This document shows, in pieces, positions 2,718 through 20,527 of a DNA stretch of 20,910 bases. Where the stretch lies: IMG/VR virus record IMGVR_UViG_3300002835_013274, positions 1 through 20,910 of that record; one strand, given 5' to 3'. Below the pieces are notes generated by a model. It searched no databases. It had not been told where the DNA came from and saw only the letters and a program-made list of their open reading frames with translations. How positions within the stretch are numbered: position 1 is the stretch's first letter; each line of letters opens with the position of its first letter. The translations under genes were made by a program, and so were the position numbers. This DNA is from a virus.

Positions 2718-5477
2718 ATGCCGAAGTTCGATTTCTACCCATCGTTCAATGCCGGCGAGGTCAGCCCGCTGATCGACGCCCGCACCTCGCTGGAGAAATA
2801 CCGCAGCGCCTGCCGGACGCTGGAGAACTTCCAAATCCTCCCCTACGGCGGCGTCATCCGCCGCCCGGGGACGCAATTCCTTGGCACGACAAAATTTGTC
2901 ACGGTTGGCGAAGTTCGTTTGATTGGGTTCAACTTCAGCACCACCACCCGCTTCATCATCGAAATGGGCGTGGGCTACATGAGATTCTGGAACCCCGCCA
3001 CGGGAGCCTTGCAGACCAACACCTCGGGCGGGACTTTGGAAGTCACTCATCCTTATGCGGGAGCCGATCTGCGCGAAATTCAATATGTCCAGATCAACGA
3101 CATCATGTATTTCGCGCATGAAAACTACCCGCCGCGCAAGCTCTCGCGCCTCGCCGACAACAATTGGACTTTCGCGGAGGTCATTTGGGACTTCCCGCCA
3201 CAACTGCAACGGAACAGCACCGACACCACGATTTCTTCCAGCAGCAATCAAGGCACCGTGACGCTCACCGCAAGCGATCCAATTTTCAAATCCGGTCATG
3301 TGAACACCCGCTGGGATTTGAAATGGAAGCGACTCACTGCGTTTAAAGAATACACAATCAACGCCGTGGGCGTGAGTAACTCCCTCGATACCATTGGAGC
3401 GTGGGATTTCAGCACCAGCGGTATCTGGAACGCCACCCTCCGCCTCATGCGGATACCTAACGAAGTGTGGAAAAAAGGCCCGATCAAAAAAAGTTTCACC
3501 CGGTCTGGAACGACTGCCACGATTTCCCATACCGACCACGGCTACCAAACAGGCGACTTCGTTCACATCGTCAGCGGATCGCCTTTGGCTACGACCATTC
3601 CGTATTCGATCACGGTCACAAACGACAATGCATACACAATTACGGTGGCAAATTCCGGCGGCACCTCTGGCACCGCTGAAATTGAAAACCTTTCACAGAT
3701 GGAGGTCGTCCGGGAATACGATGTCGCTGCCGACAAAAATATTCTTGCCAGCGGAAATGAGGCCGACCGATGCGGACTAAAAATTTGGGTTAGCGCCCAC
3801 ACCAACCCGATTGCCAACGGGCAAGAAGTCCAATTCACCCTGCTCCCTTCGACCAGCGCACTAAAATCTTCAGACACTTACACGGTAAAAAATGTCAGCG
3901 GCAACACATTTCAAATCCAAAATTTAAACAATTCCAATATTTCCGTCGCAGACAACGGAATTTACGCGGGAGAGACAGCAGTCGTTATTAAATCGGGAGT
4001 CGTGAGCGTTTCTTTGCTGACTTTGAGCGGTTTAAGTAACGGAACTTTTACCTACACTCTCGACACAAAAGCCCGCGCCATTTTAACTAACTCAAACTAT
4101 ACAACAGGCGGCATTGTCAAAATCAACTCGGTAGCAACCAATGGACTAACCGCATCAGCAACCGTGGTGGAATGGCTTGGAGCGGATTCGCTCGGTAATA
4201 AAAAAACAACCCTTTGGACCGAGCCGGGGTTTTCTGGACAAACTGGATACCCAAGGGCAGTCGCCATGCATGAGCAACGCCTTTGCTATGGAGGCACATC
4301 CACCCAGCCAAATACGATTTGGTGCAGCGCCATCGACGACTTCGAGAACTTCCAGGCCGGATCAACCGCCGCTGATGCCGTGCAATTCACCCTTGCCGCC
4401 TCCGAAGGGAACCGCATCAACTGGATGTATAGCCAAAGCCAACTCCTCATCGGCACCTCGGGCGACGAGTGGACTATCGGCAGCGCCGATTCCACGCAAG
4501 CACTCTCGGCCACCAATGTGCAAGCCAGCCGCCAGTCTTCCTACGGCAGCAAATACATGCGGGCCGCGCTCGTCAACGATGTCCTCCTCTTCGTCCAGCG
4601 CAACGGACGCAAGGTTCGCGAACTCGTCTACGAACTCAACAAAGACGGATGGGTCGCGCCGGATTTGACCCTCCTCGCCGAACACATCACCAATGGCGAG
4701 ATCGTGGACATCGCCTACCAGCAGCAGCCCGATGCCGTGCTGTGGTGCGTGCGCGGTGATGGCACGCTCATCGCCATGACCTACGAGCGGGACCAGAAGG
4801 TTGTCGGCTGGCATCGCCATGTCATTGCCGACAATGCCGATGTTGAGTCGGTCGCCACCATCTACGGCAACGGAACGGAGGACGAAGTCTGGATGGTCGT
4901 CAAGCGCACCTTGCCGGGGAATACAACCTACCGCACCATCGAGCGGTTCCCGCTCCTCTGGAGAACCCACCTCGACAACCAGACATCGGCCTCATGGCGC
5001 TACCTCGATGGCCATGTGTATTTCCCATCTGGAGCAGCCAATCGCATGATATCCGGCCTTGCTCATTTAGATGGCAAGACCGTCACCGTTGTGCAAGGAA
5101 ACACAATCTCGTATCAATTGGTCTCGGGCGATTGGATCAATGTCCCATCGACCGCCGCAGGCTATGTCGGCCTGCCCTACACCTCCACGCTACGCCCGAT
5201 GAAACTCGATGCCGATTTCGAGGACGGCACTGCGCAGTCGCGCAAGAAGCGCATCCACCAAGTCGTCGTCCGCACCCTCAAATCCAGAGGCGGCGAAGTT
5301 CGCACAAATAATGGAACATGGTATGCTCTCGCCCCGACGACCACCACGGGTGACCAAAAGATCATCCTCGGCGGAGCGTTCGGCATCGACGCCGATGTCG
5401 ATGTCCGCCAGAACGAACCTTACCCAATGTGCATCATCTCGATCCTCCCCAAGTGGGACGCTTACGGCAATGAGTGA
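2718..5477 (+). CDS. Tail tubular protein B-like / tail nozzle protein (T7 gp12-like, 919 aa)
   Basis: The N-terminus has the hallmark of podovirus tail tubular protein B: FNAGEVSPLIDAR, then EKYRSACRTLENF and GGVIRRPGTQF. A second family landmark is the ERLVFGG-like EQRLCYGGTS followed by TIWCSAIDDFENF near residues 520-545. The protein forms the distal tube of the short tail through which DNA leaves. Residues ~260-490 form an inserted region with Ig-like beta modules (for example HGYQTGDFVHIVSG, His274). Its DNA, about 3480-4190, is A/T-richer than the rest, so it looks like a laterally exchanged decoration domain. At 919 aa it is longer than T7 gp12 (about 790 aa), consistent with that insert. 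The stop TGA overlaps the GNAT gene start by eight bases. Confidence 0.8.
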   Translation: MPKFDFYPSFNAGEVSPLIDARTSLEKYRSACRTLENFQILPYGGVIRRPGTQFLGTTKFVTVGEVRLIGFNFSTTTRFIIEMGVGYMRFWNPATGALQTNTSGGTLEVTHPYAGADLREIQYVQINDIMYFAHENYPPRKLSRLADNNWTFAEVIWDFPPQLQRNSTDTTISSSSNQGTVTLTASDPIFKSGHVNTRWDLKWKRLTAFKEYTINAVGVSNSLDTIGAWDFSTSGIWNATLRLMRIPNEVWKKGPIKKSFTRSGTTATISHTDHGYQTGDFVHIVSGSPLATTIPYSITVTNDNAYTITVANSGGTSGTAEIENLSQMEVVREYDVAADKNILASGNEADRCGLKIWVSAHTNPIANGQEVQFTLLPSTSALKSSDTYTVKNVSGNTFQIQNLNNSNISVADNGIYAGETAVVIKSGVVSVSLLTLSGLSNGTFTYTLDTKARAILTNSNYTTGGIVKINSVATNGLTASATVVEWLGADSLGNKKTTLWTEPGFSGQTGYPRAVAMHEQRLCYGGTSTQPNTIWCSAIDDFENFQAGSTAADAVQFTLAASEGNRINWMYSQSQLLIGTSGDEWTIGSADSTQALSATNVQASRQSSYGSKYMRAALVNDVLLFVQRNGRKVRELVYELNKDGWVAPDLTLLAEHITNGEIVDIAYQQQPDAVLWCVRGDGTLIAMTYERDQKVVGWHRHVIADNADVESVATIYGNGTEDEVWMVVKRTLPGNTTYRTIERFPLLWRTHLDNQTSASWRYLDGHVYFPSGAANRMISGLAHLDGKTVTVVQGNTISYQLVSGDWINVPSTAAGYVGLPYTSTLRPMKLDADFEDGTAQSRKKRIHQVVVRTLKSRGGEVRTNNGTWYALAPTTTTGDQKIILGGAFGIDADVDVRQNEPYPMCIISILPKWDAYGNE

Positions 5478-5886
5478 GATCACCATCCGCCACTACGAAC
5501 CGACCGACTACGAGATGCTCTCGGAGTGGTGGCATGCCCACGGCAAGCACCGCCGCCCGGAGCCGATGCTCCCGAAATGCGGAGTCGTCTGCGAGATCGA
5601 CGGCAAGCCGGTCTCCGCCCTCTTCCTCCACATGGACAACTCCTGCGGGATGTGTCTAGCAGACCATGCCGTGAGCGCCCCCGGCCTTTCCTTGAAAACC
5701 GCGATGCTCGCTTTCAAACATTGCGTGGCTTGCCTCAAAAAAATCGCCAAGGATTTCGGCTACCACACGATGGCGGTCTTCACATACCCCGGCATAGCCC
5801 GGGTGCTGGAGCGGCAGGGGTTCCGCGAAGCCAATCGCGACCAAGTTTTTCTTATGACACCAACTGAGGAGGTTTCTAATGGCTGA
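5470..5886 (+). CDS. GNAT-fold acetyltransferase-like protein in the T7 gp13 position (138 aa)
   Basis: I chose ATG at 5470, inside the end of the nozzle gene, because the protein then starts with the GNAT beta1-alpha1 pattern (ITIRHYEPTDYEMLSEWW). The C-terminal half continues with a long helix and the YPGIARVLERQGF segment, typical of GNAT motif B. The central acetyl-CoA loop (R/Q-x-x-G-x-G/A) is not well preserved (here PGLSLKTAM), so catalytic activity is uncertain. T7 gp13 has the same size and genome position and is a virion-assembly protein, and related podoviruses often carry a GNAT-like protein there. The role is therefore probably virion assembly or core maturation. Its 3' end overlaps the next gene by 8 bp and contains that gene's ribosome-binding site. 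Confidence 0.7.
   Translation: MSEITIRHYEPTDYEMLSEWWHAHGKHRRPEPMLPKCGVVCEIDGKPVSALFLHMDNSCGMCLADHAVSAPGLSLKTAMLAFKHCVACLKKIAKDFGYHTMAVFTYPGIARVLERQGFREANRDQVFLMTPTEEVSNG
5867..5872 (+). promoter_or_regulatory. Shine-Dalgarno site for the gp14-like gene
   Basis: GAGGAG, extending to GAGGAGG, lies 6-7 bases before the ATG at 5879 and inside the end of the GNAT coding sequence. It is one of very few clear Shine-Dalgarno sequences in the window and fixes the start of the downstream gene. Most neighbours rely on overlapping stop/start codons or A-rich leaders. Confidence 0.6.
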
Positions 5887-6700
5887 CGGGGGGTTAACAA
5901 CAATGTTGGTAATATCTGCGCTGGCCACCGCCGCCTCGACCGGCATCGCGATGTATTCGGCCAGCGAGCAAAGCAAGTCGCAAGCCGCGATTGCCGAATA
6001 CAACCGCATCCAGAACGAGCAAAATGCCGCATGGCAGCGCATGGCAGCGGAGCGGGCCGCGCAGGCGGATCAGTTCAATTCGCAGATGTCCATGTTCAAC
6101 GCGCAGTCGCAGGCCGACCAGGCGAACATGAACAATGTCCTTGTTCAGCAGCAATCCCAGCAACTCCGCGCCCAAGCCGATGGCGAGGATCGCCAAGCCC
6201 GCGAGCAGGCCGACCGCATCCGCGCCGAGAAGGCCCGCATCCTCGGACTCCAACGCTCCCAATACGCCGCCGGGGGCGTGACCACCGAGGGATCGCCTCT
6301 TGCAGTTTTGGCTGATACCGCCAATATTTACGAAATGCAGGTCGCCGATGCCAAACTCCTAGCCAATCTCTCCTCGGAGAAAAAACGCTACGAGGCCGGG
6401 ATGAACGAACTCGTCGGCGACTTCAATTTGAATTCCGACCTCTTCGCCTCGGCGATGAACAAAAAAGCCGCGCAGATCAGTTTCAATGATGCCCAGTTCG
6501 CCGAGAAAGCCGCAGGAGCAGGTTACCGAATCAATATGCGCCAAGCCGCCATCGAGCAAATGTCCGGCAACGCCACCGCCCGCGCCACCGCGATGGGTGG
6601 ATACACCGCGCTCGCCAGCGGGATCGGTTCCGCCGCCAACACCGGAATGACCTACTACGGCTACAAGGGGTCTACCACCAAACAAGGAGCAATAGGCTAA
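5879..6700 (+). CDS. Internal virion (ejection) protein, T7 gp14-like (273 aa)
   Basis: The N-terminus has a hydrophobic helix (LTTMLVISALATAASTGIAMY, about residues 6-26) followed by a long Gln/Ala/Arg-rich coiled-coil region (~30-125). It then has the QRSQYAAGGVTTEGSP segment and ends in a Gly/Ala-rich stretch (MGGYTALASGIGSAANTG). This pattern of hydrophobic N-end, Gln-rich coiled coil and GV-x-x-x-GSP is characteristic of podovirus internal virion protein B. T7 gp14 (196 aa) is ejected into the outer membrane to start the DNA-translocation channel. Location between GNAT/gp13 and gp15-like genes agrees. The ATG at 5879 is supported by a GAGGAGG site. The stop TAA shares bases with the next ATG (TAATG). 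Confidence 0.75.
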   Translation: MADGGLTTMLVISALATAASTGIAMYSASEQSKSQAAIAEYNRIQNEQNAAWQRMAAERAAQADQFNSQMSMFNAQSQADQANMNNVLVQQQSQQLRAQADGEDRQAREQADRIRAEKARILGLQRSQYAAGGVTTEGSPLAVLADTANIYEMQVADAKLLANLSSEKKRYEAGMNELVGDFNLNSDLFASAMNKKAAQISFNDAQFAEKAAGAGYRINMRQAAIEQMSGNATARATAMGGYTALASGIGSAANTGMTYYGYKGSTTKQGAIG

Positions 6701-8739
6701 TGCCCGCCATCCGACTCGCCGACATCCCCAACGCAGGCCCGCAAGCCCTCGGGCCATCGACCGGCATCCTTTCCCCGCAAGCCGCGCAACTTGGCCGCGC
6801 CGCCATGATCGACCCCAGCGGAATGCGAAACGCCGCGCAGTCGATGCTCACCCAAACTCTGGAACTCGATGCTTTCTCCCAAGAAGCCCGCGCCATGGGC
6901 AAATTCGCCGACTCCATCGGCGGGCTGGGCGATGTCGCCATGAAGTGGGGCCAGAAATTCGCCGAGGCCAAGGACTACGCCGACATCAACCGCGCCGAGA
7001 CACTCCTCGCGATTGCCTCTCAAAATCAAAAAGCCGACCAGGCAACTCTCCCGATGGAAAAGTGGGGCGACTCACTGGCACGGAACCAAGAGGAAACCAA
7101 AAAGGCGCTGGCCGAAATCAAATTCAGCAACAACGCCGCCGAGAAATTCAACCCGTATTTCGAGAACTGGACGCTCAAGTCTCAAGCCTCGATGCAGGCA
7201 GAAACCCGGATCAAGCAACTGGAACTTGCCAAGACCGACATCAAGGCCAACGCCCTCCGACTCGCCGCCGAGGGCAATTTTGAAGCCTCTCTCTCCGCTT
7301 TCAAGGGTGGGGTGGACAAAGGCGTTTTTACCCAAGAGGACTTCGATAAATTTGGAGCCGACATCCGCGACAACGAAATCCGCGCCGACGAGGCCATGCA
7401 GACTGACCGGATCACCGCTGATTTGATGACCGATTACACGGTCGCGAAGCAGAACCTCAACGAATATGTCAAGTCCGCCGGGAACGCGAAAGACGATGCC
7501 CGCATCAAGGGTGCCTACGGTGAAATGCCGATGAGCAAAGTCCGCCGCTTGATGGCGCAGGTCGATCAGCAAGGCCGGATCACCGAGGCGAACAACTACA
7601 ACATCCTCGCCCAAGCGATTGATTCCAACACCCCGATCCGCGATGCCAACGGGAACGAAATCCTCATCACCGACAAGGACAAACTGGAATCGGCACTCTC
7701 GTCTTACAAGGTCACCGGCACGGAATCCAAGAAACGGCTGGAGCGGTTAATCAGCGACAATGTGCCGTATGATGCCAAGAAAATCTCCGAAGTGAATGCG
7801 CGGTTGGCAACCTACGACCCTTCGATTGACAACAACCTCGGCGAATTTGCGACCCTACAAAATGAAATCGCCGCCAATGTCCCAAAACAACTTCGCCCAT
7901 TCCTCAACGACCGGCTTGCCCAAGCGGTCAAAAAATTCAACGCCGATGGGACTCTGAAATCACCAACCGAAAAATGGCAGGGAGACATAATTAACAATGT
8001 CCTCAATCTCGGAAAATCGGGTCTCCTCGGCGATCCCGGCACGGAAAAAACATCCTCCGGGATGTATGGAGAAAAGATCACCGATCCCGCCAAGAACAAC
8101 GCCTACTGGTCGCGGGTCTATTCCATTCAAGAAGGGATGAGCGATTGGTTTGCAAACCCAGCCAACAAAGACAAGACCCCGGCAGATGCCATAAATTACA
8201 GGGACAGCCTCATCCAACCGCTGATCAACGAGTCGTCGAAGAACAATCGCAAAAACCAAACATCGAATCGCGGTAGCTATGTAGAGAGCATCAGCGCCGG
8301 AGCCTACGGAGCGCCAACCCCCAAGCCAACGCCGCCGCCATCCACCGATGCCATTCAAAAAGCCAAAGAGGCAAAAGACAAATCCCTCGGCAAGGTGACG
8401 AGCTACAACTTCCCGAACGATCCATATTCCGACACCAACTCGCGCAACCGCATCGGCGCATGGAACAATCGCCTCGACGAAAACTCCCTCGCCATCTCGC
8501 CCGACATCGAGCGCAAATTCAAAGCCGCCGGAATCGGCAAGGGCGATCCCGTGGAACTCACCCTCGCCGATGGGTCCACCGTGATCCGCACTTGGGACGA
8601 CCGCACCATGCAGGACTCGCAAGCGATCAAGAAATTCGGCAAGCCACTCACCGGACGCTTCGATTTTCACTCTCCCGGCGGCAAACAAAAGAACGATGGC
8701 ATGGCTGTCGTTTCCTTCCGCAAGGCACCTACTGCTTAA
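6700..8739 (+). CDS. Internal virion (ejection) protein, T7 gp15-like (679 aa)
   Basis: The protein begins with a conserved-looking N-terminus (PAIRLADIPNAGPQALGP) and then a long mostly helical, charged region of ~500 residues without cysteines or membrane segments. The C-terminal ~170 residues hold a Pro-rich linker (near residues 545-555) and a compact end domain (TLADGSTVIRTWDDR). Length (T7 gp15 is 747 aa) and place between gp14-like and the giant gp16-position gene support the periplasmic tunnel component of the ejectosome. The ATG overlaps the previous TAA by one base. Sequence similarity to T7 gp15 itself was not obvious to me, so the call depends on size, fold character and order. 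Confidence 0.6.
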   Translation: MPAIRLADIPNAGPQALGPSTGILSPQAAQLGRAAMIDPSGMRNAAQSMLTQTLELDAFSQEARAMGKFADSIGGLGDVAMKWGQKFAEAKDYADINRAETLLAIASQNQKADQATLPMEKWGDSLARNQEETKKALAEIKFSNNAAEKFNPYFENWTLKSQASMQAETRIKQLELAKTDIKANALRLAAEGNFEASLSAFKGGVDKGVFTQEDFDKFGADIRDNEIRADEAMQTDRITADLMTDYTVAKQNLNEYVKSAGNAKDDARIKGAYGEMPMSKVRRLMAQVDQQGRITEANNYNILAQAIDSNTPIRDANGNEILITDKDKLESALSSYKVTGTESKKRLERLISDNVPYDAKKISEVNARLATYDPSIDNNLGEFATLQNEIAANVPKQLRPFLNDRLAQAVKKFNADGTLKSPTEKWQGDIINNVLNLGKSGLLGDPGTEKTSSGMYGEKITDPAKNNAYWSRVYSIQEGMSDWFANPANKDKTPADAINYRDSLIQPLINESSKNNRKNQTSNRGSYVESISAGAYGAPTPKPTPPPSTDAIQKAKEAKDKSLGKVTSYNFPNDPYSDTNSRNRIGAWNNRLDENSLAISPDIERKFKAAGIGKGDPVELTLADGSTVIRTWDDRTMQDSQAIKKFGKPLTGRFDFHSPGGKQKNDGMAVVSFRKAPTA

Positions 8740-8742
8740 AGT

Positions 8743-11700
8743 ATGACCCCACTCATCGACGACGAGACAGCGACACGCTTCTACAACGAAATCGACAACG
8801 CCCCGGAAGAGGATCGCCAGCAGATGGCCGATGCCCTCCTTGCTTGGGGCGAGGAAAAGCAAAGCAGGGAGCGGGAAGAGACCGACACCCATTTCTCAAA
8901 ACTTTTCACAGACGAGAGCTACTACCAGCAAATCAACGACAACGATCCCGCGCTCTCCGAGGCGCTCGATCCCGAGGCAACCGCAAAAAGGGCCAGCATC
9001 CACGCCTACTTGGAACACCAACTTAACCGGCCCATCGATGCCGCAAACTTTGAACCGGAGCGCGATGCCTTCGCCATGCAGGCGTTCGGCCAGAAAAACC
9101 TTAACGACGGTCAACTCTTCGATTTCATCCGGGGAGATTACGATTGGCAGAAGCAACGCACCGAGGCGATCAACGACCTCCAGATGCAGTCCGTGGGCAA
9201 AGCGATTGCCGACTCTCAACTCGGCCAGACCCGCCCCTTCGTGGACGGCATGACCGAGGTCTTCAACCAGTGGCAGCAGAAATACCCGGAACTGGTGGAC
9301 GGCAAGAATGACGCCGCCTTCCTCTCGCAGGGTTACAAGCTCTACTACGACACGATCAACGACCTCGACACCGTTCGTCCGCAGGCGTCCAAGGCGCTCT
9401 CCACGCTCACCTCGTTCACCCAAGGCAACGCCACCGACGAGGACATGCAAAGCCTCGCCAACGACTTCGTCGGCGCTCCCCCCGAAGACCGCCAGAAAAT
9501 CTACAAATATGTGACCCTCGCCGCGCAAGCCGGTCAGATCGACCGCGCCGGGATCGAGCAGTTTGCCATCAACATGGGGCAAGCCTTCACCCGTGGGTTC
9601 GACTTCGTCCCGCAGGGAACGCTCCAGATTCAAGAAGCAGGCGTCAACGATGTGCTGCAAAAAGTAAAAAGCGGGCAAAAAGTCTTGGTGCCTCAAAATG
9701 GAGACATCACCAAGGCGACCGTTGCCGAGCAGACACCAAAAGCCCAAGTCCTCGGCCAAGCTCCCACGGTCGGAATGTTTGCCACCCCTCAAGACGGCTA
9801 CCGCGAAGCCACACCCGAAGAGGCTGATCAATTTACCTCCTACGCCACAAATGCCATGGAGTCCTTCAAGGTCGTGCGTGAACTTCGCAATGTCGCCAAG
9901 ACCGGCGTCGATCCCATCCGCCCCGTGCTGGAAGAGAAATCCTTCTGGGGAACCGCCGAGCGCGGAGCCTACGGTTTGTCTGGCAGCATCCCGCTCATGG
10001 GCGCGACCGCCGTCAACCCCTACCTCGGCGTCCTCGCCTACCAAGCGACCGAATACGACCGCATCATGCTGGAGAACCCGGAAATCAACCCGCAGTTCGC
10101 CCAAGGTCTCGCCCTAGTGGAAGGCGCGGCCAATGCCGCCATCGACCGGGTCCAGTTGAGCAGCCTCACCGGGCGACTCCCCATGTTTGGCCGCTACCTC
10201 GACCGCATCGCCAGCAATGGCGTCCGCCGCACCGTCAAGATCGGAGCCAATGTCGTGGAGCAGAACTTGCAGGAAGGCGCTCAAGACCTCATCGCCCCCG
10301 TGCTGGAGACCGCCGTCGCCGCCCTCCGCGAGGACATGCCCGACAAAGATTTTGGAAAACTGCTGAACGAATGGGGAGGTCAGCGGGCCGAAACTTTCTT
10401 CGCCACCCTCCCGCTCGCCCTCATCGGCGGTGGAGTCGCCACCTACCGCGACATCAAGAACCCTTCCGCCGAACTCAACGCCACCAAGCTCCGCATGGCA
10501 GGATTCGGGCAGGATCAAGTCACCTTCATCCAGCGAGCCGAGAATCCCGAGGAATACACCGCCCGCATCCAGATGGAGTGGGACAAACGCACTCCCGAAG
10601 CCATCGAGGCCGGACGGCAAGAAGTCATCGCCGAAATGCAGCAGGCCGCGACCCCCGGAGAAAACGATGCCAAACTCTCCGAGACGGTCGCCGAGGACGG
10701 CACACGCCGCTGGGTCGTCACCGCGCCGGACGGCAAGGAACTCCTACAGACCCAAGACCAGCAGGCTGCTCTGGATGCCGTGCGCCAGCACACCGAGACA
10801 CAACTTTTAAACAAGCAGTTTGAGACCGCCTACGAGCCTCAAGAACTTCGGCAAATCATCAACGACCGGATCACTAATTGGAAATCGCAAGATTCCAATA
10901 ACACGCTCGTCATGGAATCCGAAGGCATGAATGCCCAGCAAAAACTGGAGCAACTCCAAGCCGCAGGCAACGCATCGCAGATTCAAGAACTCCACAACCG
11001 CATCGCGAACTCCCATCTCAAAGACACGCCCTACGAGCAAATTAACATCCTCGGCGAAGCCAGCGTGGACGATGTCTCGGAGATGGTCTTCAAGTCACTC
11101 ATCACGATCAACCCAAACACTCGCCCGGAAAACCTCCGCGAGGAAATCCACCACACGGCGGTCAAGGTCGCGATCAGAAATGGAAGCGTCACACTTGACA
11201 CCTTGCGTGGGTGGCTCGACGCCACCGAAAAAGCCCTGCCAGGAACATTCCAAAACCTTGTCCGAGATTCGGAAGGCGACATCGTGGAATCGCTCGCCCA
11301 AGTCCAAGCCGCCTACGAGGACGGGAAAATCGACGCCAATGAGGCATCCGCTCTTCCGGCTTCGTTCATCGATTACATCAAAAACATGATGCGGACCTTT
11401 GCCGAGGTCTTGCGCCGAGCAGTCGCCCTGCGCGGAGCCTTTAAGGACGGCGCTCTCCCAGCGGAATACGAATCCTTCCTCGCCGAATCCGTGGGACTCA
11501 ACCAGCAGACGATGGTGGACACCACCCGGGAGCGGGTCGGCGGCGAACTGGCACAAGGCACCTTCAACTACTCGGTTGGGCAACGAGTTTCGACTGATAC
11601 CAACCCATACCCCATGGAGCAGAAGGGCAAGTGGTGGGCTAACGAGGATTTCGCGCAGCGTGGCGGGCAGATCGTGACCATGTCGCCCGACGAATTCCTT

Positions 11701-14700
11701 TCACAGGTCAGACCGCTGGAAGTGGACGAAGCCTCCCGCGACAACATCGACGACCTCAAAAACATGATGCAGAGCGGGCGCAAACTCGACCCGCTGGCCA
11801 TCTACGCCGATGGCAAGGAAGACGGCAGGCACCGCGCCACCGCCGCCAAGGAACTCGGGATGGCTACGATCCCGGTCCTCGACTTCCGGGCAAACAAGCC
11901 GGAACCCAAAGGCAATGACTTCTCCATCGGTTCCCGCGCCAGCGCAGTTTCGACTGATACTCCCTCCATTCGCGCCAGCAACGCCACGATTACCGGACCT
12001 GCAAACTACAGCATCGGAGCATTCCACGGCACCCCGCACAAGGTGGACAAATTCAGCACCGAGAAGATCGGCACCGGCGAAGGAGCGCAGGCTTATGGGT
12101 GGGGGCTGTATTTTGCACAAGCAAAAGCGGTTGGAGAAGGATACCGAGATCAACTCGGCGGCATTCGGTTGATGACCGCAGACGGGCAGATGGCAGACAA
12201 CATTGTGTCTACGCCGGGGGCGAAAAAAATACTCAAAGAAGCTCGGGCTTTTTGGAAGCAAACAAAATCGCTGGATGGTTTTGTAAAACAATTGGAGTCA
12301 TCAAAATCCCAATCAAAGGTTTGGGCAGCGCAAGGCGATAATGTCGAATCCAACTCGCAATATGTAAAAGATGTAGACGAGGTTTTGTCAGCAATTAAAG
12401 ACACAACCCCAACCCCAACAGGCAACCTCTACAGCGTCGAACTCGATGTTGACGATGCCGACCTGCTCGATTGGGACAAGCCGCTCTCCGACCAAAGTCC
12501 AAAGGTGCATGCAGCATTGCAATCAATCTCCGGCAATTGGTTGTGGCAGGACGCAATTTCTGGGAAAAGTGGGGAGCAGGTTGGCGGGGCATTATACAGC
12601 ACACTTCGCGCCACATTTCCCGATGCGGAGTTTTCACGCGATGGCGTTGACGCTTCAAAGAAAGCCTCCGAAGCCCTCCTCGCCGCAGGCATCCCCGGCA
12701 TCCGCTACCTCGACGGCGGTAGCCGCTCGGTCAATGCTACAGACGACCGGCTTTTAGAACTTGCCGAGAAAAACAACGGCAACAAGGAAGCCGCTGTCGA
12801 TGAGTTCATGCGAAGTGTCTATGACACACCAAAGGCCAAGGAGAAAATGCGAAGCGACCTTCTTCGCAACTTTCCAGAACGCACCTCCAACTATGTCGTC
12901 TTCGACGAGAACCTCATCAAGATCACCGAGGAGAACGGCAACCGCATCCCCGCATCGGAAGCTCTCGCCGCGCCAGCTACCGGCGCAACCAACTACAGCA
13001 TTGGGAAAAAGGACAAAGAAGTTGTCGTTAATCCAGACGAGACAACAGAACCCGGCACCCCTGCTCCAGATACTGGTATTGAAATCCTTGATCCAGATCA
13101 AGAAGGAGAGGATATTCCGTGGGGGCCGACCAATTACTCAATTGGCCCAAGATCATTGCCGGAAGTTTTTCCGACAATAGACAAAAAACTTTTCAACAAG
13201 ATCAAGAAGGAGACATCGACAATTGCGGCAATCCACATCGACCGCATGAAGGTCGGTGAGCTTATGGGGATACCATTGCAAGGCGGAATGTTTTACCCGT
13301 CCATTGTTGAGAATTTAAAAGCCGGAGTGGTGTGGGCGTTTAATGCTCCAAATGTGGCAAGGACGGTCGCCCGACGAGCTGCCGCCAATGGTGGATATGT
13401 GAAATTAGTCCTCATGCAAGAGGGTAATGTTATTGGTAACAAAACATTTACTCATGTATGGTTTGCAAGCCTTGAGCAAAACATTTCAAGCGGAGCGATC
13501 ACAAAAGCAACCGCACTTGGAGAACTTAATCGTGTGCGTGAGTTGTTTTCTAATCATTCAGATTCAAAACTTTCAACTGGTCACAAGAAAAAATGGAAGT
13601 CTTTAGAAGAAGCCAAAAACGCGATTATTTCTTTGCCGCAACAAAAACGCGCATCGACATATTTTAAAAAAACGAAGGTCGAAACAAAAGGCGAAGGTGT
13701 AAAAATCGCCTACCAGCAATTGCTTTCCAAGAAAAACACAAAACTTGGAATGCCAGACCCAATCACTCTGGTTGAGCAAATGGAAGAACCGGCATTCAAA
13801 GGAATGCCAACCGGGGCGATTGTTGGAATAATAAAAATCGATCCAATTAAAGATAGTGATCCTATTTTAACCGGCCAACAAGCAGGGGTTCCAACACACT
13901 TGTCCTACGACTATGTTTTGAAAGGGAAGCCTGTTGCCAAGATGAAAAAAATCACCGTCTTGGATGAGGCTTTTCCAGAAACAAAAAATCAAATACTGAC
14001 GCAACAGCACACCGATTTCCCTCTTGCGGGTGCAATCAACTACTCCATCGCCTCGCAGCGCGAGATCGACCGAGTAAACGCCGCGCTCGGCGGCATGAAC
14101 CGAGGCCCGGACGAGCGGCTCAAAGTCTACGAGAGGGCCAAGCAAAAATTCTCCAAGCTCATGTCTTGGAATTCCGATGAACTCGGAGCGATGGCCGACA
14201 CCGGCTCCGACGAGACGCAAATCCGCCGCAACCAATTGCTCCAAGGATTCGGCGAACTCGACGCGATCCTTCAAGTCCTCCCGCCCGAAGTGCGTGGGCG
14301 CGTGGGCGGCTACACCGTCCTCGCCAACATCGCTCCGATGGATGTCTTCAAGGACGGAGTGAAAGTCTCCGAAGCCAAAAACATGGACGGCGCGATCATC
14401 AGCGCATGGATGAAGGAAGGCCAAAACATCGGCCAAGCAGGCAAGCAGGTCTCGCTGCCACCAGGCTACACGGCCAAGGAAAACCTCGCCAGCAAGCGAG
14501 CCGACAAAGCCCTCGCCGACTTCTTCCGCGACCGCATCAAGAAGATCGACACCGAACTCGAAAAGGTGCTGGTGCGCGAATACACCGAGGCCATCACCAA
14601 GGCCGTGAAGCAATCCCGCCCGAAGGCCGGTGACAACGGAGTCCGCAAGTCAACCCTTGGAGCCGAGACGCAGAAGTTCGCCGACATGGTTTACCGAGCC

Positions 14701-17124
14701 ACCCTCCTTGACGACGAGGCCACGCCCAAGCGCATGGACGAGATTGATGCCGCGCTCACCAATCCGGACGCCACCGCCGAGGACATCTCCGCTCTCTCTG
14801 AAGAGCTGTCGATCCTCAACACATTTGGCGACCTCGACAACCGTTCGTCCGAGACGCTCGCACAGGGTCTCGACTGGCTCAAAGGTCAACTGCAAATGGG
14901 ACGCGAAGCGTGGCGGATCAAGGAGCAGGCCCGCATCGACGAGCAGAGGGCGCGTGCCGCAGCGACCATCGAATGGCTCGGCAAAGGCACAGCAAAAAAA
15001 CGCTTCGCCGACAAGGGACTCATGCAACGCATCACCGAGGTCGGGAACAACTACCTTCTCGACCACGCCAGTTTCGAGCAGTTCGTCACCGCCATGCTCC
15101 CGCCGGAGATCGCCGCGAACTTCTCCGTGCGTCTCCGCAAAGCCGACATGGCCGCGCAATCCGCAGAAATCCGCGATGGCAAAGGCATCCTTGATGCCGT
15201 CCGGGAAGGCGCGAAAGCCGCCAACATGTCAGCAGGCGATGCCATGCTCTGGCTCAAAGGAGATCAGAAAAATGCCGTAGCCTACCTTGAAGGCCGCAAA
15301 GTGAAGGACGAGCGCATCGCCATCGAACTTGCTCAAAAGATCGTCACCGGCGAGGCCGACCGAAGCAAGCTCACCGATGCCGATATCGAGACGCTCCGCA
15401 ACGAACTCGCCGCACTCCCGGCGGACACGCAAAAAGAATTCGTCACCATCAAGCGTGTCATTTTCCGTGGCGAGGATGTGAAGCTCGACATGTCCCGCGC
15501 CAAGGCCATCCAACTCCTGCTCTCATGGAACCAACCGGATGTCCAAATCAAGATGCGGAAGGAAGGATGGACCGATGAAAGCGCAGCCGACCTTAAGGCT
15601 CTCGTCAACGATCCCGTCTCCCGATCCGTCATCAACTACCTGCAAGCCCTCTACGGCAAAGGCGTAAGCATCGTGAATCCGGTCTACTCGCGAATTTTCG
15701 GCATGACCATGCCGCAGGTCAAAAACTACGCGCCGACTCGGTTCCTCAACGCCAAAGACTCAAAGGACATCGGCCTCGACGGGTCGCCGACCGCCACCGG
15801 CACGACTCCGAGTTTTGCCAAAACCCGTGTCACCCACTCTGCCAAGATCGCTGCAGAGGATGCCCTCACCGTGGCGCAAGGCCACATCGCCCAGCAAGCC
15901 CATTGGGTCCATTTCGCCGAACTCGCCCGCGAATTCCGCGCACTCCTCTCCTCCCCGGATGTCCGCGAATCCCTCAAGCAAAAGCACGGAGATGCCGTCC
16001 TCAAAAGCGCCGAACTCTGGGCAGACCAATTGGAACAACGAGGCGGCAACAAGGCCCGCGAATCCGCATGGCTCAACAATGTCATCGGCACAGCCATCTC
16101 CGGCAAAGCAGTCGCATCGCTCGGATTCAACCTCAAGACGCTCGCAATGCAGCTTGAAAACACGATCCGCTTCGGCCTCTCGCTCGACATGAAGCAGATC
16201 GCCTCGGCGCTCTCACAACCCGGCAACATCATTGAGGACATCCAGACCGTCTGGGAATCCGATGCCATCCAGAACCGACTCCAAGGAGGCGCAACCGCCG
16301 AGGCGCGTTTCCTTTTCTCCCGCTACGCAGGCAAACCAAACTTCGCCGCGAAGATCGCCGAGGCATCGATGACCCCGATCAACTGGCTCGACTCCGCAGG
16401 AACTTCGATCTCCAGCGCCATCGTCTACAGGGCCAACCTCGATGACGCCCTCGACGCAGGCATGCCAGAGAACCTCGCCAAGCAAGCCGCACTCAATGCC
16501 GCCAGCGAGGCCATCTACCGCTTCGCGCAGCCGGTCAGCTTTGGCCAGAAAAGCATCATGGAAAACAACGGGAATGTTTTTGCAAAAACCTTCTTCCTTT
16601 TCATGTCCGACCCGCGCCTCAAGACCGCCATCCTCGCAGATGCCGCTCGCGGGCTGGCCACAGGGCGAGGCAAAGCCAGCGAACACATCCGCCGCATCGT
16701 CGCCGTGGAACTCATGGCGCTCGTCTCCCATGTCATCTCCAGCGCATTCAAAGACACCTTTTCAGATGACGACGACGAGGAAATCTGGGGCATCGGCGGC
16801 TTTGCAAAAGCCATGCTCCTCGCCCCATTCCAAGGATTCTTCTTCGCAGGATCAGTGGCCGAGGTCGCCCTCTCCAAGCTCACCGGCCAAGGGTATTTCA
16901 CCTCGTCGCAAAACCCGCTCCTCAACACCGCCGAGTCGGCAATCCGCGCCGGGTCAAACCTCGATGACGCCTTCAACTTCAGCGACCCAGACGCCATGCT
17001 CAAAGAGTGGAACAATATCTTCCGCTCGATGGCAGTCACGCCAACCATGGCCGCGCCTGCCGTCCTCCTCAACATGGTCAAGCCTGCGCTCGGCCTCTAC
17101 CAAAACGCCACCACCGAGGACTGA
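8743..17124 (+). CDS. Giant polyvalent virion protein in the gp16 position with ParB-like and ADP-ribosyltransferase modules (2,793 aa)
   Basis: The ATG follows the gp15-like stop by 3 bp. Modules in order: a helical N-terminal region (1-940) with Gly-rich hydrophobic stretches (~411-435 and ~552-568) and an E-E-x-H-H element (E800-H804); a ParB-like domain (~970-1045, DGRHRATAA at 1027); an ART-PolyVal-type ADP-ribosyltransferase (~1093-1396: FHGTPH at 1094, YGWGLYF at 1118, GIPGIRYLDGG at 1316, SNYVVFDENLIKI at 1382); an acidic linker; an unassigned A/T-rich-encoded domain (~1469-1765, LQGG at 1511, HLSYDYVLKGKPV at 1719); and a helical C-terminal region (1770-2793) with hydrophobic helices at ~2650-2668 and ~2687-2706, like C-termini of other phage polyvalent proteins. 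Six NYSIG-like motifs sit at module borders. T7 gp16 (1,318 aa) crosses the inner membrane during ejection; by position this one is probably delivered with the DNA, but no N-terminal transglycosylase was seen. Confidence 0.75.
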   Translation: MTPLIDDETATRFYNEIDNAPEEDRQQMADALLAWGEEKQSREREETDTHFSKLFTDESYYQQINDNDPALSEALDPEATAKRASIHAYLEHQLNRPIDAANFEPERDAFAMQAFGQKNLNDGQLFDFIRGDYDWQKQRTEAINDLQMQSVGKAIADSQLGQTRPFVDGMTEVFNQWQQKYPELVDGKNDAAFLSQGYKLYYDTINDLDTVRPQASKALSTLTSFTQGNATDEDMQSLANDFVGAPPEDRQKIYKYVTLAAQAGQIDRAGIEQFAINMGQAFTRGFDFVPQGTLQIQEAGVNDVLQKVKSGQKVLVPQNGDITKATVAEQTPKAQVLGQAPTVGMFATPQDGYREATPEEADQFTSYATNAMESFKVVRELRNVAKTGVDPIRPVLEEKSFWGTAERGAYGLSGSIPLMGATAVNPYLGVLAYQATEYDRIMLENPEINPQFAQGLALVEGAANAAIDRVQLSSLTGRLPMFGRYLDRIASNGVRRTVKIGANVVEQNLQEGAQDLIAPVLETAVAALREDMPDKDFGKLLNEWGGQRAETFFATLPLALIGGGVATYRDIKNPSAELNATKLRMAGFGQDQVTFIQRAENPEEYTARIQMEWDKRTPEAIEAGRQEVIAEMQQAATPGENDAKLSETVAEDGTRRWVVTAPDGKELLQTQDQQAALDAVRQHTETQLLNKQFETAYEPQELRQIINDRITNWKSQDSNNTLVMESEGMNAQQKLEQLQAAGNASQIQELHNRIANSHLKDTPYEQINILGEASVDDVSEMVFKSLITINPNTRPENLREEIHHTAVKVAIRNGSVTLDTLRGWLDATEKALPGTFQNLVRDSEGDIVESLAQVQAAYEDGKIDANEASALPASFIDYIKNMMRTFAEVLRRAVALRGAFKDGALPAEYESFLAESVGLNQQTMVDTTRERVGGELAQGTFNYSVGQRVSTDTNPYPMEQKGKWWANEDFAQRGGQIVTMSPDEFLSQVRPLEVDEASRDNIDDLKNMMQSGRKLDPLAIYADGKEDGRHRATAAKELGMATIPVLDFRANKPEPKGNDFSIGSRASAVSTDTPSIRASNATITGPANYSIGAFHGTPHKVDKFSTEKIGTGEGAQAYGWGLYFAQAKAVGEGYRDQLGGIRLMTADGQMADNIVSTPGAKKILKEARAFWKQTKSLDGFVKQLESSKSQSKVWAAQGDNVESNSQYVKDVDEVLSAIKDTTPTPTGNLYSVELDVDDADLLDWDKPLSDQSPKVHAALQSISGNWLWQDAISGKSGEQVGGALYSTLRATFPDAEFSRDGVDASKKASEALLAAGIPGIRYLDGGSRSVNATDDRLLELAEKNNGNKEAAVDEFMRSVYDTPKAKEKMRSDLLRNFPERTSNYVVFDENLIKITEENGNRIPASEALAAPATGATNYSIGKKDKEVVVNPDETTEPGTPAPDTGIEILDPDQEGEDIPWGPTNYSIGPRSLPEVFPTIDKKLFNKIKKETSTIAAIHIDRMKVGELMGIPLQGGMFYPSIVENLKAGVVWAFNAPNVARTVARRAAANGGYVKLVLMQEGNVIGNKTFTHVWFASLEQNISSGAITKATALGELNRVRELFSNHSDSKLSTGHKKKWKSLEEAKNAIISLPQQKRASTYFKKTKVETKGEGVKIAYQQLLSKKNTKLGMPDPITLVEQMEEPAFKGMPTGAIVGIIKIDPIKDSDPILTGQQAGVPTHLSYDYVLKGKPVAKMKKITVLDEAFPETKNQILTQQHTDFPLAGAINYSIASQREIDRVNAALGGMNRGPDERLKVYERAKQKFSKLMSWNSDELGAMADTGSDETQIRRNQLLQGFGELDAILQVLPPEVRGRVGGYTVLANIAPMDVFKDGVKVSEAKNMDGAIISAWMKEGQNIGQAGKQVSLPPGYTAKENLASKRADKALADFFRDRIKKIDTELEKVLVREYTEAITKAVKQSRPKAGDNGVRKSTLGAETQKFADMVYRATLLDDEATPKRMDEIDAALTNPDATAEDISALSEELSILNTFGDLDNRSSETLAQGLDWLKGQLQMGREAWRIKEQARIDEQRARAAATIEWLGKGTAKKRFADKGLMQRITEVGNNYLLDHASFEQFVTAMLPPEIAANFSVRLRKADMAAQSAEIRDGKGILDAVREGAKAANMSAGDAMLWLKGDQKNAVAYLEGRKVKDERIAIELAQKIVTGEADRSKLTDADIETLRNELAALPADTQKEFVTIKRVIFRGEDVKLDMSRAKAIQLLLSWNQPDVQIKMRKEGWTDESAADLKALVNDPVSRSVINYLQALYGKGVSIVNPVYSRIFGMTMPQVKNYAPTRFLNAKDSKDIGLDGSPTATGTTPSFAKTRVTHSAKIAAEDALTVAQGHIAQQAHWVHFAELAREFRALLSSPDVRESLKQKHGDAVLKSAELWADQLEQRGGNKARESAWLNNVIGTAISGKAVASLGFNLKTLAMQLENTIRFGLSLDMKQIASALSQPGNIIEDIQTVWESDAIQNRLQGGATAEARFLFSRYAGKPNFAAKIAEASMTPINWLDSAGTSISSAIVYRANLDDALDAGMPENLAKQAALNAASEAIYRFAQPVSFGQKSIMENNGNVFAKTFFLFMSDPRLKTAILADAARGLATGRGKASEHIRRIVAVELMALVSHVISSAFKDTFSDDDDEEIWGIGGFAKAMLLAPFQGFFFAGSVAEVALSKLTGQGYFTSSQNPLLNTAESAIRAGSNLDDAFNFSDPDAMLKEWNNIFRSMAVTPTMAAPAVLLNMVKPALGLYQNATTED
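11563..14052 (+). repeat. Six copies of an NYSIG-like motif at module borders of the giant protein
   Basis: Copies begin at residues N942 (NYSVG), N1058 (NDFSIG), N1088 (NYSIG), N1417 (NYSIG), N1464 (NYSIG) and N1766 (NYSIA). In copies 1, 2 and 5 the motif is followed within two residues by Arg. Each lies directly before or after a recognisable domain. The serine is encoded by TCG, TCC, AGC, AGC, TCA and TCC, so the conservation is at protein rather than DNA level. Function is unknown. A processing or docking site is inference. Confidence 0.8.
11586..11960 (+). repeat. 15-bp in-frame direct repeat flanking the ParB-like module
   Basis: AGTTTCGACTGATAC occurs at 11586-11600 and, identically, at 11946-11960. 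The period is exactly 360 bp (120 codons), and both copies encode VSTDT shortly after an NYSIG-like motif. A 13/15 match lies at 17138-17152, just after the giant gene's stop. The arrangement looks like the scar of a duplicated or recombined domain cassette. Confidence 0.75.
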
Positions 17125-18302: not shown

Positions 18303-18319
18303 TGGCACTAGTTGGCACT
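18303..18319 (+). promoter_or_regulatory. Candidate integrase arm-type sites, right pair (TGGCACT x2)
   Basis: TGGCACT occurs at 18303-18309 and 18313-18319, again 10 bp apart and in the same orientation as the left pair. An inverted near-copy, ACTGCCA, follows at 18321-18327. The pair sits 26-42 bp before the integrase ATG, so integrase bound here could also repress its own gene. Confidence 0.65.
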
Positions 18320-18344
18320 GACTGCCAAAACACCAACCAACAGA

Positions 18345-19343
18345 ATGAAACCCAACCCCTATGCAGTTCGGTTTGAAGATGCGCGAAATCGATGGGTGCT
18401 TGATCTCAAAGCATCTTATTTCGGGGATCGGAAACGGATGTTTTTTGAGACCGAGTTGGAGGCGCATTCGGAGGGGGCGCGGCTGGTGGATGTGTTGCGC
18501 GAGAAAGGTCGCGAAGGAGTGAGGAGCGAGGAGGGCGGGATGTCGGTGGCGGTGGCGACCCGGATGTTTGCGGCGGAGAACGCGACGAAATCCAAATCGC
18601 ATATCGCGAAGGTCGAGATGCTGTGCCGGGAACTGAACTCGAAATGGTCCGGGGCGTTGTCTGCCATTGAGCCGGTGGCGTTGACGAGATGGATCAACCA
18701 GACCTCGGATTCACCGACGACTAGGGCGATGTGGTTTCGCTATGCGCGGATGTTTTTCCGCTGGGCGGCACGGATGAGATTCATCGAGCGGTCGCCGGTC
18801 GAGGGGATGCGGTCTCCGAAGGCGACACCGTCGCGAAACATTCTCACGCCCGCGCAAATGAAGGAACTGCTCAAAGCTCCGATGCAGGATGATGTGAAGG
18901 CGCTGGTGCTGCTAGGCGGGTTCGCGGGCCTGCGGACCATCGAGGTGGCGCGGATGAATTGGGAGGATGTGGATTTCAAATCGAATCAAATCCATATTCG
19001 GCCCGAGGTCTCGAAACAGACCACGGGAATGCTGGAGCGGGTCGTGGATATGACCGAGCCGCTGGTGAAACGGCGGGAATTTTTCAAAGGGAAGAAAGGC
19101 GTGATCGTGAAAGGATCGCTGGAGGCGTTGCATGAGGCGCGGCGGCGCGTGGCACTTGCTCTTGGCTGGGAGGGCTGGCCAGAGAATGCGCTTCGGCATT
19201 CGTTCGCGACCTACCACCTCGGTCGCTGCGGGAATGCGGGATTGACGGCCTACCAAATGGGTCACACCTCGCCAGCGATGGTGCAGAGAGTCTATGCGGT
19301 TCCCGCCGTTCGGGCCGATTGGAAAGCCTTTTGGAGGATTTGA
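18345..19343 (+). CDS. int: Tyrosine-family phage integrase (332 aa)
   Basis: The C-terminal catalytic domain shows R197 in GLRTIEVAR, K224 in SKQT, R284 in NALRHSFATY, H307 in MGHTS and the nucleophile Y317 in RVYAV. The position that is usually the first His of HxxR is Asn (N281). The N-terminal half has an arm-binding-like beta region (residues ~3-35) and a core-binding SAM-like helical domain (~60-160, WFRYARMFFRWA). ATG at 18345 was preferred over an upstream TTG at 18312 because the TTG lies within the arm repeats; neither has a Shine-Dalgarno sequence. It should recombine the tRNA-Ser attP core just upstream with a host tRNA-Ser. Its + strand is strongly G-rich, unlike the C-rich genes on both sides. 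Confidence 0.9.
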   Translation: MKPNPYAVRFEDARNRWVLDLKASYFGDRKRMFFETELEAHSEGARLVDVLREKGREGVRSEEGGMSVAVATRMFAAENATKSKSHIAKVEMLCRELNSKWSGALSAIEPVALTRWINQTSDSPTTRAMWFRYARMFFRWAARMRFIERSPVEGMRSPKATPSRNILTPAQMKELLKAPMQDDVKALVLLGGFAGLRTIEVARMNWEDVDFKSNQIHIRPEVSKQTTGMLERVVDMTEPLVKRREFFKGKKGVIVKGSLEALHEARRRVALALGWEGWPENALRHSFATYHLGRCGNAGLTAYQMGHTSPAMVQRVYAVPAVRADWKAFWRI

Positions 19344-19346
19344 CCT

Positions 19347-19529
19347 ATGCCTTACGCGAACAAAAAAACGCAGCAAAAGTTCATGGCGAAACAATACTCG
19401 GATCGCTACCGCACGGACGATAAATTCAAGGAGGCGGAGAAGGTTCGCAAGGCGGATTGGTATCAGAGGAACCGCGAGAAGGTGATTGCGCGTGTAATGG
19501 AGAACAAGGCGAAGAGGGTGAAGCGATGA
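19347..19529 (+). CDS. Small highly basic hypothetical protein (60 aa)
   Basis: The Lys/Arg/Gln-rich, largely helical peptide has repeats of the type DRYRTDDKFKEAEKVRKADW. It has no cysteines, so no zinc finger. Such Y-R-x-x-N/D-R-E-K peptides occur in phages, sometimes as remnants of HNH-endonuclease N-termini, but no nuclease motif is present. It starts 3 bp after the integrase stop and shares the integrase gene's G-rich composition, so it probably belongs to the same cassette. Its TGA overlaps the next ATG (ATGA). Confidence 0.6.
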   Translation: MPYANKKTQQKFMAKQYSDRYRTDDKFKEAEKVRKADWYQRNREKVIARVMENKAKRVKR

Positions 19530-19702
19530 CCGTCTTCATTGTTTCCGGTTGGTTGTGTCTCTTTGTGGCGTCTTGCTTATTCATGGGCGAATACGCGCCA
19601 GCTGGTAATTGGTGGAACAAAACATGGTTCGGAATTTACATTTTCTGCATGGTAGTTTTAGGGGTTGCCGTGATTTATTTTAGTTTTTTTTCGGTGAAAT
19701 AA
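19526..19702 (+). CDS. Small two-helix membrane protein (58 aa)
   Basis: ATG at 19526 overlaps the preceding stop (ATGA), indicating coupled translation. Two hydrophobic segments (VFIVSGWLCLFVASCLFM and GIYIFCMVVLGVAVIYFSFF) flank a short polar, Trp-rich turn (PAGNWWNKTW). The DNA is A/T-richer than the integrase. The family is not recognised. Phage inner-membrane peptides of this kind, expressed near integrase, are often superinfection-exclusion or host-interaction factors, but nothing here proves that. Confidence 0.6.
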   Translation: MTVFIVSGWLCLFVASCLFMGEYAPAGNWWNKTWFGIYIFCMVVLGVAVIYFSFFSVK

Positions 19703-19936
19703 ATTTCCGCGCAGCCAGCATTCATGCGGGTTGGCGGGCGGATGGACGGTTTTGATTTGGGGCGCTGGTCAAGTCCCCTCGCCTGCGGAGCGTCTGTTTA
19801 AGCGGGTGAATTTTTATTTCGGCCTGCGGATCATTTGCCCATGCGGTTGTCAAGTGTTTTTTTATGGTAGGTGATCACCGCATTGAAGAATAATTCTTGT
19901 GTGGTTTTAGTAACCTCGGCTAAGAGTTTTTTCGTC
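19703..19936. promoter_or_regulatory. Intergenic control region with three clustered dyads
   Basis: This 234-bp gene-free stretch is the longest non-coding gap outside attP. It contains two near-copies of GCCTGCGGA (~19790 and ~19822) and then T-rich DNA (~19855-19863). Three symmetric elements lie within 46 bp: GGTGATCACC (perfect palindrome, 19870-19879), AAGAATAATTCTT (19886-19898) and GGTTTTAGTAACC (19903-19915). No convincing -35/-10 pair was found, although a TTGTCA lies at 19847-19852. The RHH regulator gene starts 21 bp after the last dyad, so this is probably its operator region. Confidence 0.5.
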
Positions 19937-20185
19937 ATGCCAAACCAACACTCCACCGACAAAGAAGTGATCGGATTTTACATCCCTCGCACATTGGCGG
20001 CACGGGTTCGCAAAGCTGCCAAATCCCGTGGGCTGACAATCACCGCTTTCATTGAAGAAACTCTTACCCATGCCACTCGCAAAACCATTCTCGCGCCAGA
20101 GGACTACCTCGCCATCGCCGAAGCCACAAAAAGAGCTGCTGGCCGTGTGGCTTCCAAGAGAGCTAGTCGCCCGAGTAAAAATTGA
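19937..20185 (+). CDS. Ribbon-helix-helix DNA-binding protein 1 (82 aa)
   Basis: Residues ~9-50 fit an Arc/MetJ/CopG ribbon-helix-helix fold: strand EVIGFYIP, helix A RTLAARVRKAAKSRG, then LTITAFIEETLTHA as helix B. The tail (~55-82) is helical and basic (KRAAGRVASKRAS). Such proteins bind operators as dimers. The start ATG at 19937 lies 21 bp after a dyad cluster it may bind. Its last third overlaps a second RHH gene in another frame (20070-20291), which is unusual. No Shine-Dalgarno is obvious. Confidence 0.65.
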   Translation: MPNQHSTDKEVIGFYIPRTLAARVRKAAKSRGLTITAFIEETLTHATRKTILAPEDYLAIAEATKRAAGRVASKRASRPSKN

Positions 20186-20291
20186 GGCGGAAGCAGGCAA
20201 AAGACCAACCAGTCGGCAGGTCGAGTTTTTTTTGGAGCAGGTTTTAGTAACCCGCCAAGTTAAAGATGCATACATAAAGTCGCTAGAATAA
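20070..20291 (+). CDS. Ribbon-helix-helix-like protein 2, overlapping the first out of frame (73 aa)
   Basis: Residues ~21-60 again look like an RHH domain: strand KELLAVWLP, helix RELVARVKIEAEAGK, then TSRQVEFFLEQVLV. The ATG at 20070 lies 116 bp inside the first RHH gene, and the first 20 residues are low-complexity and basic, so the real start may differ. An alternative is fusion of the two domains by a +1 ribosomal frameshift near the A-run at 20128-20132. The similarity of its core to the first protein's core argues that it is real coding sequence rather than a shadow. The gene contains one copy of GGTTTTAGTAACC. Confidence 0.5.
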   Translation: MPLAKPFSRQRTTSPSPKPQKELLAVWLPRELVARVKIEAEAGKRPTSRQVEFFLEQVLVTRQVKDAYIKSLE

Positions 20292-20323
20292 ACAATTTTT
20301 TTATAGAAAGGTTTTAGTAACCC

Positions 20324-20527
20324 ATGAACATAATGATGACCGTAGAAGAAGCCGCTCAACTCACCGGCTACGCGCCGTGGACGATTCGGCAGTTTTGCAA
20401 CAAGGGGATGTTCACCGCAGAAAAGCCCCGTGGCGACCGTGGCGGTTGGCGCATCCTTCGGCCCTCGCTGGAGAAGTGGTGGTCGGACAAGCGCCGTGCG
20501 AGCCTCAACACCCGGAGGGCTTCCTAA
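20324..20527 (+). CDS. MerR/excisionase-like winged-helix HTH protein (67 aa)
   Basis: MTVEEAAQLTGYAPWTIRQF is a typical helix-turn-helix of the excisionase/MerR-like (HTH_17) group, followed by a basic wing (RGDRGGWRILRPSLEKWW). Phage proteins of this type act as recombination directionality factors or small regulators. Nearness to int suggests an Xis role, but it is not adjacent and could equally be a transcriptional regulator. The start could be Met1, Met4 or Met5; the first ATG is one base after a GGTTTTAGTAACC element. Its TAA overlaps the next ATG (TAATG). Confidence 0.7.
   Translation: MNIMMTVEEAAQLTGYAPWTIRQFCNKGMFTAEKPRGDRGGWRILRPSLEKWWSDKRRASLNTRRAS

Follow-up and report, generated by a model that had tools for sequence, protein, structure and literature searches.

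Polyvalent proteins of phages and plasmids were described by Iyer et al. 2017 (PMC5512222); the available sections of that paper present single long polypeptides with ART-PolyVal, Kinase-PolyVal, MuF_C, LPD3, LPD13 and ParB-like domains and a zincin-like domain, and describe no recurrent peptide tag heading every domain. In CdiA, toxin regions that can be exchanged are bounded by the VENN peptide, at which precise cleavage takes place during delivery (PMC9424206). For the N4 virion RNA polymerase, a very large ejected protein, a beads-on-a-string transport model with flexibly linked globular beads has been presented, and the available part of that report mentions neither a repeated joint tag nor effector-cassette exchange (PMC12633501). 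The current work concerns a giant phage protein that has likenesses to each of these systems. As in polyvalent proteins, the same kinds of domains are shuffled across its family within one long polypeptide, and a zincin-like domain is present in degenerate form; unlike in the proteins so described, each domain here is as a rule headed by a tag. As in CdiA, a short conserved peptide borders exchangeable effector cassettes and marks the point of exchange. The two peptides are non-homologous, however, and CdiA has one border, whereas here there is one tag per cassette. The kind of protein is known, and the joint tag, for which a literature search returned nothing relevant, is a new feature and possibly a general design rule.

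The window, which is the whole stretch of DNA analyzed, is a 20,910-base IMG/VR phage fragment. Endolysin and tyrosine integrase genes were found in it, together with the following genes around the giant protein:

2718-5477, tail tube B gene (phrog_376)
between the tail tube B gene and the gp14-like gene, small protein (phrog_17252), the acetyltransferase-position gene
5879-6700, gp14-like internal virion protein (phrog_418)
6700-8739, 679-aa protein in the gp15 position
8743..17124, plus strand, giant polyvalent ejection-type protein of 2793 aa, after the tail tube B, phrog_418 and 679-aa genes

The order of tail tube B, acetyltransferase-position gene, phrog_418, a protein of ~550-680 aa and the giant protein is like that of the T7-like gp14-gp15-gp16 genes. 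A near-complete related record of 37.7 kb (G002) contains a T7-type portal (PF12236), scaffold, capsid protein, tail tube genes and RecT. The phage is a podovirus, and its giant protein, much larger than T7 gp16, stands in the gp16 position after gp14/gp15-like genes. Judged from this gene position, the protein is probably packaged and ejected into bacteria.

Several other observations were made in this neighborhood. A tyrosine integrase and a small excisionase-like ORF (20324-20527) lie at 18312-20527 of the window and suggest a temperate phage; despite the integrase, the fixed N- and C-terminal blocks of the giant protein have no relative in GTDB prokaryote genome contigs. In the tail gene region, positions 1204-2532 of the window and L057:14035-15426 encode a protein of many short TGNVTGG-like repeats, which vary among relatives; it is possibly a beta-solenoid host-contact protein. 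About six copies of the tail tubular protein A domain (phrog_394) appear to be spread within and across three consecutive ORFs at L057:7961-12092 (G002), which would be an unusual expansion. The gene order of tail, internal virion protein and giant protein is also present in an archaeal-host virus, Methanomicrobiales virus vir555 (L052, BK063671.1), whose ART domain shows 35.9% identity over query 1085-1328.

The giant protein can be divided at its tags into the following parts:

8743..11565, plus strand, fixed N-terminal block (cluster M2), the same block in 38 proteins
11140..11157, plus strand, REEIHH inside the N-terminal block, degenerate remnant of zincin HEXXH by profile match to sister HEXXH domains
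11566..11580, plus strand, tag 1, NYSVG at residue 942, Ser codon TCG
11566..11916, plus strand, cassette M6, ParB-like by pattern (GRHRATAAKELG...IPV), from tag-cut clustering
11917..11931, plus strand, tag 2, DFSIG (in NDFSIG) at residue 1059, Ser codon TCC
11917..12003, plus strand, 29-aa linker cassette M4, 17 copies
12004..12018, plus strand, tag 3, NYSIG at residue 1088, Ser codon AGC
12004..12990, plus strand, cassette M3, ADP-ribosyltransferase (ART-PolyVal) by PF18760 (E 4.6e-5, below gathering score) and homologues
12991..13005, plus strand, tag 4, NYSIG at residue 1417, Ser codon AGC
12991..13131, plus strand, 47-aa acidic linker cassette M19, from tag-cut clustering
13132..13146, plus strand, tag 5, NYSIG at residue 1464, Ser codon TCA
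13132..14037, plus strand, cassette M12, ~300 aa and without known domain, from clustering and Pfam
14038..14052, plus strand, tag 6, NYSIA at residue 1766, Ser codon TCC
14038..17124, plus strand, fixed C-terminal block (cluster M1), beginning YSIASQxEIDRVN, with 17 different left partners

The preliminary description of this DNA had reported six NYSIG-like copies with serine codons of both families, and both points were borne out. The pattern [YF]S[IVL][GA] occurs six times in the giant protein against 0.34 expected, a number reached in 0/20,000 shuffles, and NYSI/NYSIG also comes out on top in an unbiased k-mer search of its sequence (E about 1e-5 to 1e-7). The label of ParB-like for the first module agrees with the sequence pattern of M6, but this cassette has no Pfam match. 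The N-terminal block has no PDB or PHROG relative; PDB profile searches with both fixed blocks gave chance-level matches only, with no detectable sequence relation to any solved structure.

Relatives of the giant protein were collected in two scans of viral contigs. The first used patterns without the tag and yielded 47 loci; the second, with the C-terminal block, added loci, and its patterns include YSIASQ, so that the tag of the C-terminal block is ascertained in the second set only. In 58 non-redundant IMG/VR giant proteins, 185 tag copies (a few of them beyond the giant protein itself or close to its C-terminus) were detected versus 17.4 in shuffles, and the tag at cassette starts has the form [TI]-[NS]-[YF]-S-[IV]-[GA]. 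Cutting these proteins at the tags produced 35 clusters, a number that includes singletons and end fragments. The layout consists of a fixed N-terminal block (~940 aa), about 25-30 cassettes shuffled across the family, and a fixed C-terminal block (~1030 aa), with 72 distinct junction types and 30 distinct complete architectures; the ART cassette M3 has 11 different right neighbors. Pfam recognizes ART-PolyVal, MuF_C, LPD3, LPD13 and DUF7178 in the family cassettes, with Kinase-PolyVal just below threshold and ParB_N weak, which places the family among polyvalent proteins; of these domains, the protein of the window shows ART-PolyVal alone, below its gathering score. In the variable region, 61% of homology-block starts lie within 8 aa of a tag versus 8% for random positions (61-67% within 8-10 aa across tests, 6-8% expected). 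The earlier placement of the tags at module borders extends to the relatives, in which homology blocks begin at the tags.

The idea that the motif separates modules needs revision in one respect, since the tag is not a neutral separator; it belongs to the downstream cassette as its head. When junctions with the same downstream and different upstream cassettes were paired, codon identity was 0.82-0.89 at Y and S and high thereafter, whereas the residue immediately before the tag gave 0.15. In pairs with the same upstream cassette, codon identity decays at the tag. As judged from these codon comparisons, cassettes are exchanged together with their tags, with breakpoints just upstream. A half-lost joint in the M6 of the window itself, VSTDTN-PYPM, is consistent with breakpoints adjoining the tag.

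Exchange at such a site could in principle leave a recombination anchor or passive flexible joint, in which case the tag would be the leftover of repeated cassette insertion and would have no molecular partner. Cassettes do swap at the tag, the phage group encodes RecT (G002), and M4, M19, M27 and M32 are empty linker cassettes. At the DNA level, certain words of 14 bp (AACTACAGCATCGG) come up repeatedly, and the N, Y and S positions have less codon entropy than the background. Where unrelated cassettes adjoin, however, what is conserved is not the DNA. The residue match there is 1.00 at S (a value imposed by the search pattern), 0.89 at I, 0.67 at Y, 0.57 at N and 0.53 at G, and the codon match is 0.33, 0.38, 0.54, 0.44 and 0.18, respectively; thus, serine and isoleucine codons match in 33-38% of comparisons against 89-100% for the residues. 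Flanking residues match mostly at 0.03-0.13, and up to 0.29 at position -3. Random synonymous choice under the codon usage would give ~0.22 for serine and ~0.56 for isoleucine, so that the serine match is mildly above and the isoleucine match (0.38/0.89 = 0.43) below expectation, and the Ser, Ile and Gly codons have nearly background variety. A peptide kept while its codons vary implies that selection acts on the peptide, as had been proposed before, and a purely DNA-level recombination linker, also proposed then, fits poorly.

Because the serine value was set by the search pattern, an unconditioned test was added, in which cassette bodies minus the tag were searched against all proteins. The pattern [YF]S[IVLM] was found within 8 aa at 147/154 cassette starts. 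The remaining 7 end in ...TDTN just before YSIG, which is an offset effect, so 154/154 keep the tag; about 99 of the 154 are not C-terminal-block starts and are free of the YSIASQ ascertainment. Retention at all cassette starts would be unexpected without selection, and the passive joint is accordingly an improbable account. A conserved peptide at an exchange border, comparable to VENN of CdiA, is thus found in this family. On sequence comparison it is nearly certain that the protein consists of fixed blocks and variable cassettes, that every cassette and the C-terminal block are headed by the tag, and that selection acts at the peptide level.

The residues around the tags are consistent with a position in linkers. 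In the nine residues before the tag, G, P, S, T, D, N and A are enriched (0.64 vs 0.46) and hydrophobics are depleted (0.18 vs 0.29). Two AlphaFold models, covering tags 2-6 (five of the six), place the tags in coil at the lowest confidence, in pLDDT blocks of 23-30; both models are poor (mean pLDDT 44 and 50), so the predicted disorder at the tag counts for little.

The tag is probably a recognition site at which the giant protein is cut or docked. We favor site-specific processing by a trans-acting protease, with a probability of about 40%. In this view the giant protein would go through packaging and ejection as folded beads joined by flexible strings, and the tag would be a short linear motif that a single partner recognizes at every joint. 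The protease would cut at the tags during or after delivery and would release the effectors from the two terminal blocks, which stay anchored, so that the tag, like VENN, may be both exchange point and cleavage site. Release logic and the CdiA precedent, in which cleavage is known (PMC9424206), tip the choice slightly toward processing over docking, two readings that the sequence data do not separate. P22 gp20 possibly needs host cleavage (PMC8954989). Against processing, no protease able to cut the tag was identified, and the N4 virion RNA polymerase, ArdC and TraC1 are reported to undergo packaging or transfer without cleavage (PMC5512222). Some tags also stand in tandem, 12-29 aa apart, which makes little sense if each must release an enzyme.

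Processing by a known phage protease, part of one role offered in the preliminary description, is not supported; another protease might act in trans. The NYSI[GA] DNA pattern is confined to the giant gene in 11 related records, according to positions compared by hand with gene coordinates, and in G002 the motif is absent from every other picked ORF. No prohead protease gene was found among the scanned G002 ORFs (a subset), where the order is portal, scaffold, capsid; PHROG gives one weak 'protease' label to the scaffold (E 1.4e-4), which is not seen in Pfam. Processing by a prohead protease is disfavored, since such a gene was not found among the ORFs scanned in the near-complete genome and the tag pattern occurs in no capsid protein.

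The cut could also be made by the giant protein itself, through autoproteolysis by the zincin-like domain that precedes the first tag. Iyer et al. propose that zincins process polyvalent proteins (PMC5512222), and in the sister giants L118, L120 and L140 an HEXXH zincin lies just upstream of the first tag. The end of the N-terminal block is homologous to these zincins of the sister phages (hhalign probability 98.4, E 7e-15), but the family of the window has EEIHH, EEINH or unrelated residues (REEIHH, FEEINH, VRDFSQ) in place of HEXXH, with loss of the first zinc ligand. The giant protein of the window has no HEXXH, and L095 is the only family member with one; sister giants keep their tags whether or not they have it. 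Because the zinc motif is lost here, self-cleavage is very unlikely. An active zincin, which is frequent and not obligatory in polyvalent proteins, is not seen, and the metallopeptidase-like domain of this family is, by its sequence, a conserved pseudo-enzyme.

Docking is the other way in which the tag might be read, and we consider it slightly less likely than processing. The tag would bind as an extended strand to a repeated site on a co-packaged gp14- or gp15-like protein or on the protein's own fixed blocks, by which any cassette could be packed and threaded. The alternating (T/I)-N-(Y/F)-S-(I/V)-G sequence is strand-like, the tag is lineage-specific and retained at all joints, and the tandem arrangement at spacings of 12-29 aa would be harmless. 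By analogy, a 'molecular tape' segment of T7 gp16 cements gp15 (PMC8954989). As with processing, no partner was identified. Roles other than these carry a small share of the probability, and site-specific processing remains the preferred reading.

Joint tags may extend beyond the NYSIG family. A search with the ART cassette yielded 80 loci. With the NYSIG family left out, [YF]S[ILMV] stands directly before the ART domain in 12/37 giants and in 0/37 of the shorter, mostly single-domain ART proteins (Fisher p = 1.7e-4, indicative only because the loci are phylogenetically non-independent). The same pattern precedes M1 relatives in L118 and L125 and an M10 relative in L140. Other giants have FLPA, RFQP, LLAK, LFQP or FSQR before ART instead, and in L114, L116 and L121 the sequence before ART is itself repeated through the protein. 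Repeat searches detected lineage-specific repeats in these three and in L130, and none that were convincing in Limnohabitans phage DC33, Pag-Yong1, Y7, USP_18 and Jess A; the generality is therefore partial. In L110, a giant of 6356 aa, QLDLF occurs three times; it resembles the bacterial beta-clamp binding consensus and could be either a genuine clamp motif or a joint tag.

By lineage, the candidate joint tags are [TI]NYSI[GA] here, FS[ILV] in sister podoviruses, and F[ML]PA, RFQP, LLAK or LFQP in others. The presence of [FY]S[ILV] at the same joints in sister phages, with other tags farther out, means that lineage-specific joint tags may be general. It is conceivable, if on balance doubtful, that in ejected phage polyvalent proteins at large a lineage-specific tag heads each effector as a portable address that a factor for delivery or processing would recognize, so that any effector could be plugged in. 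Numerous effector domains of phages are embedded in giant proteins, and how these are delivered is poorly understood. With a tag at every cassette start, such proteins can be parsed into units from sequence and their borders predicted, and the choice between cutting and docking during delivery becomes directly testable.
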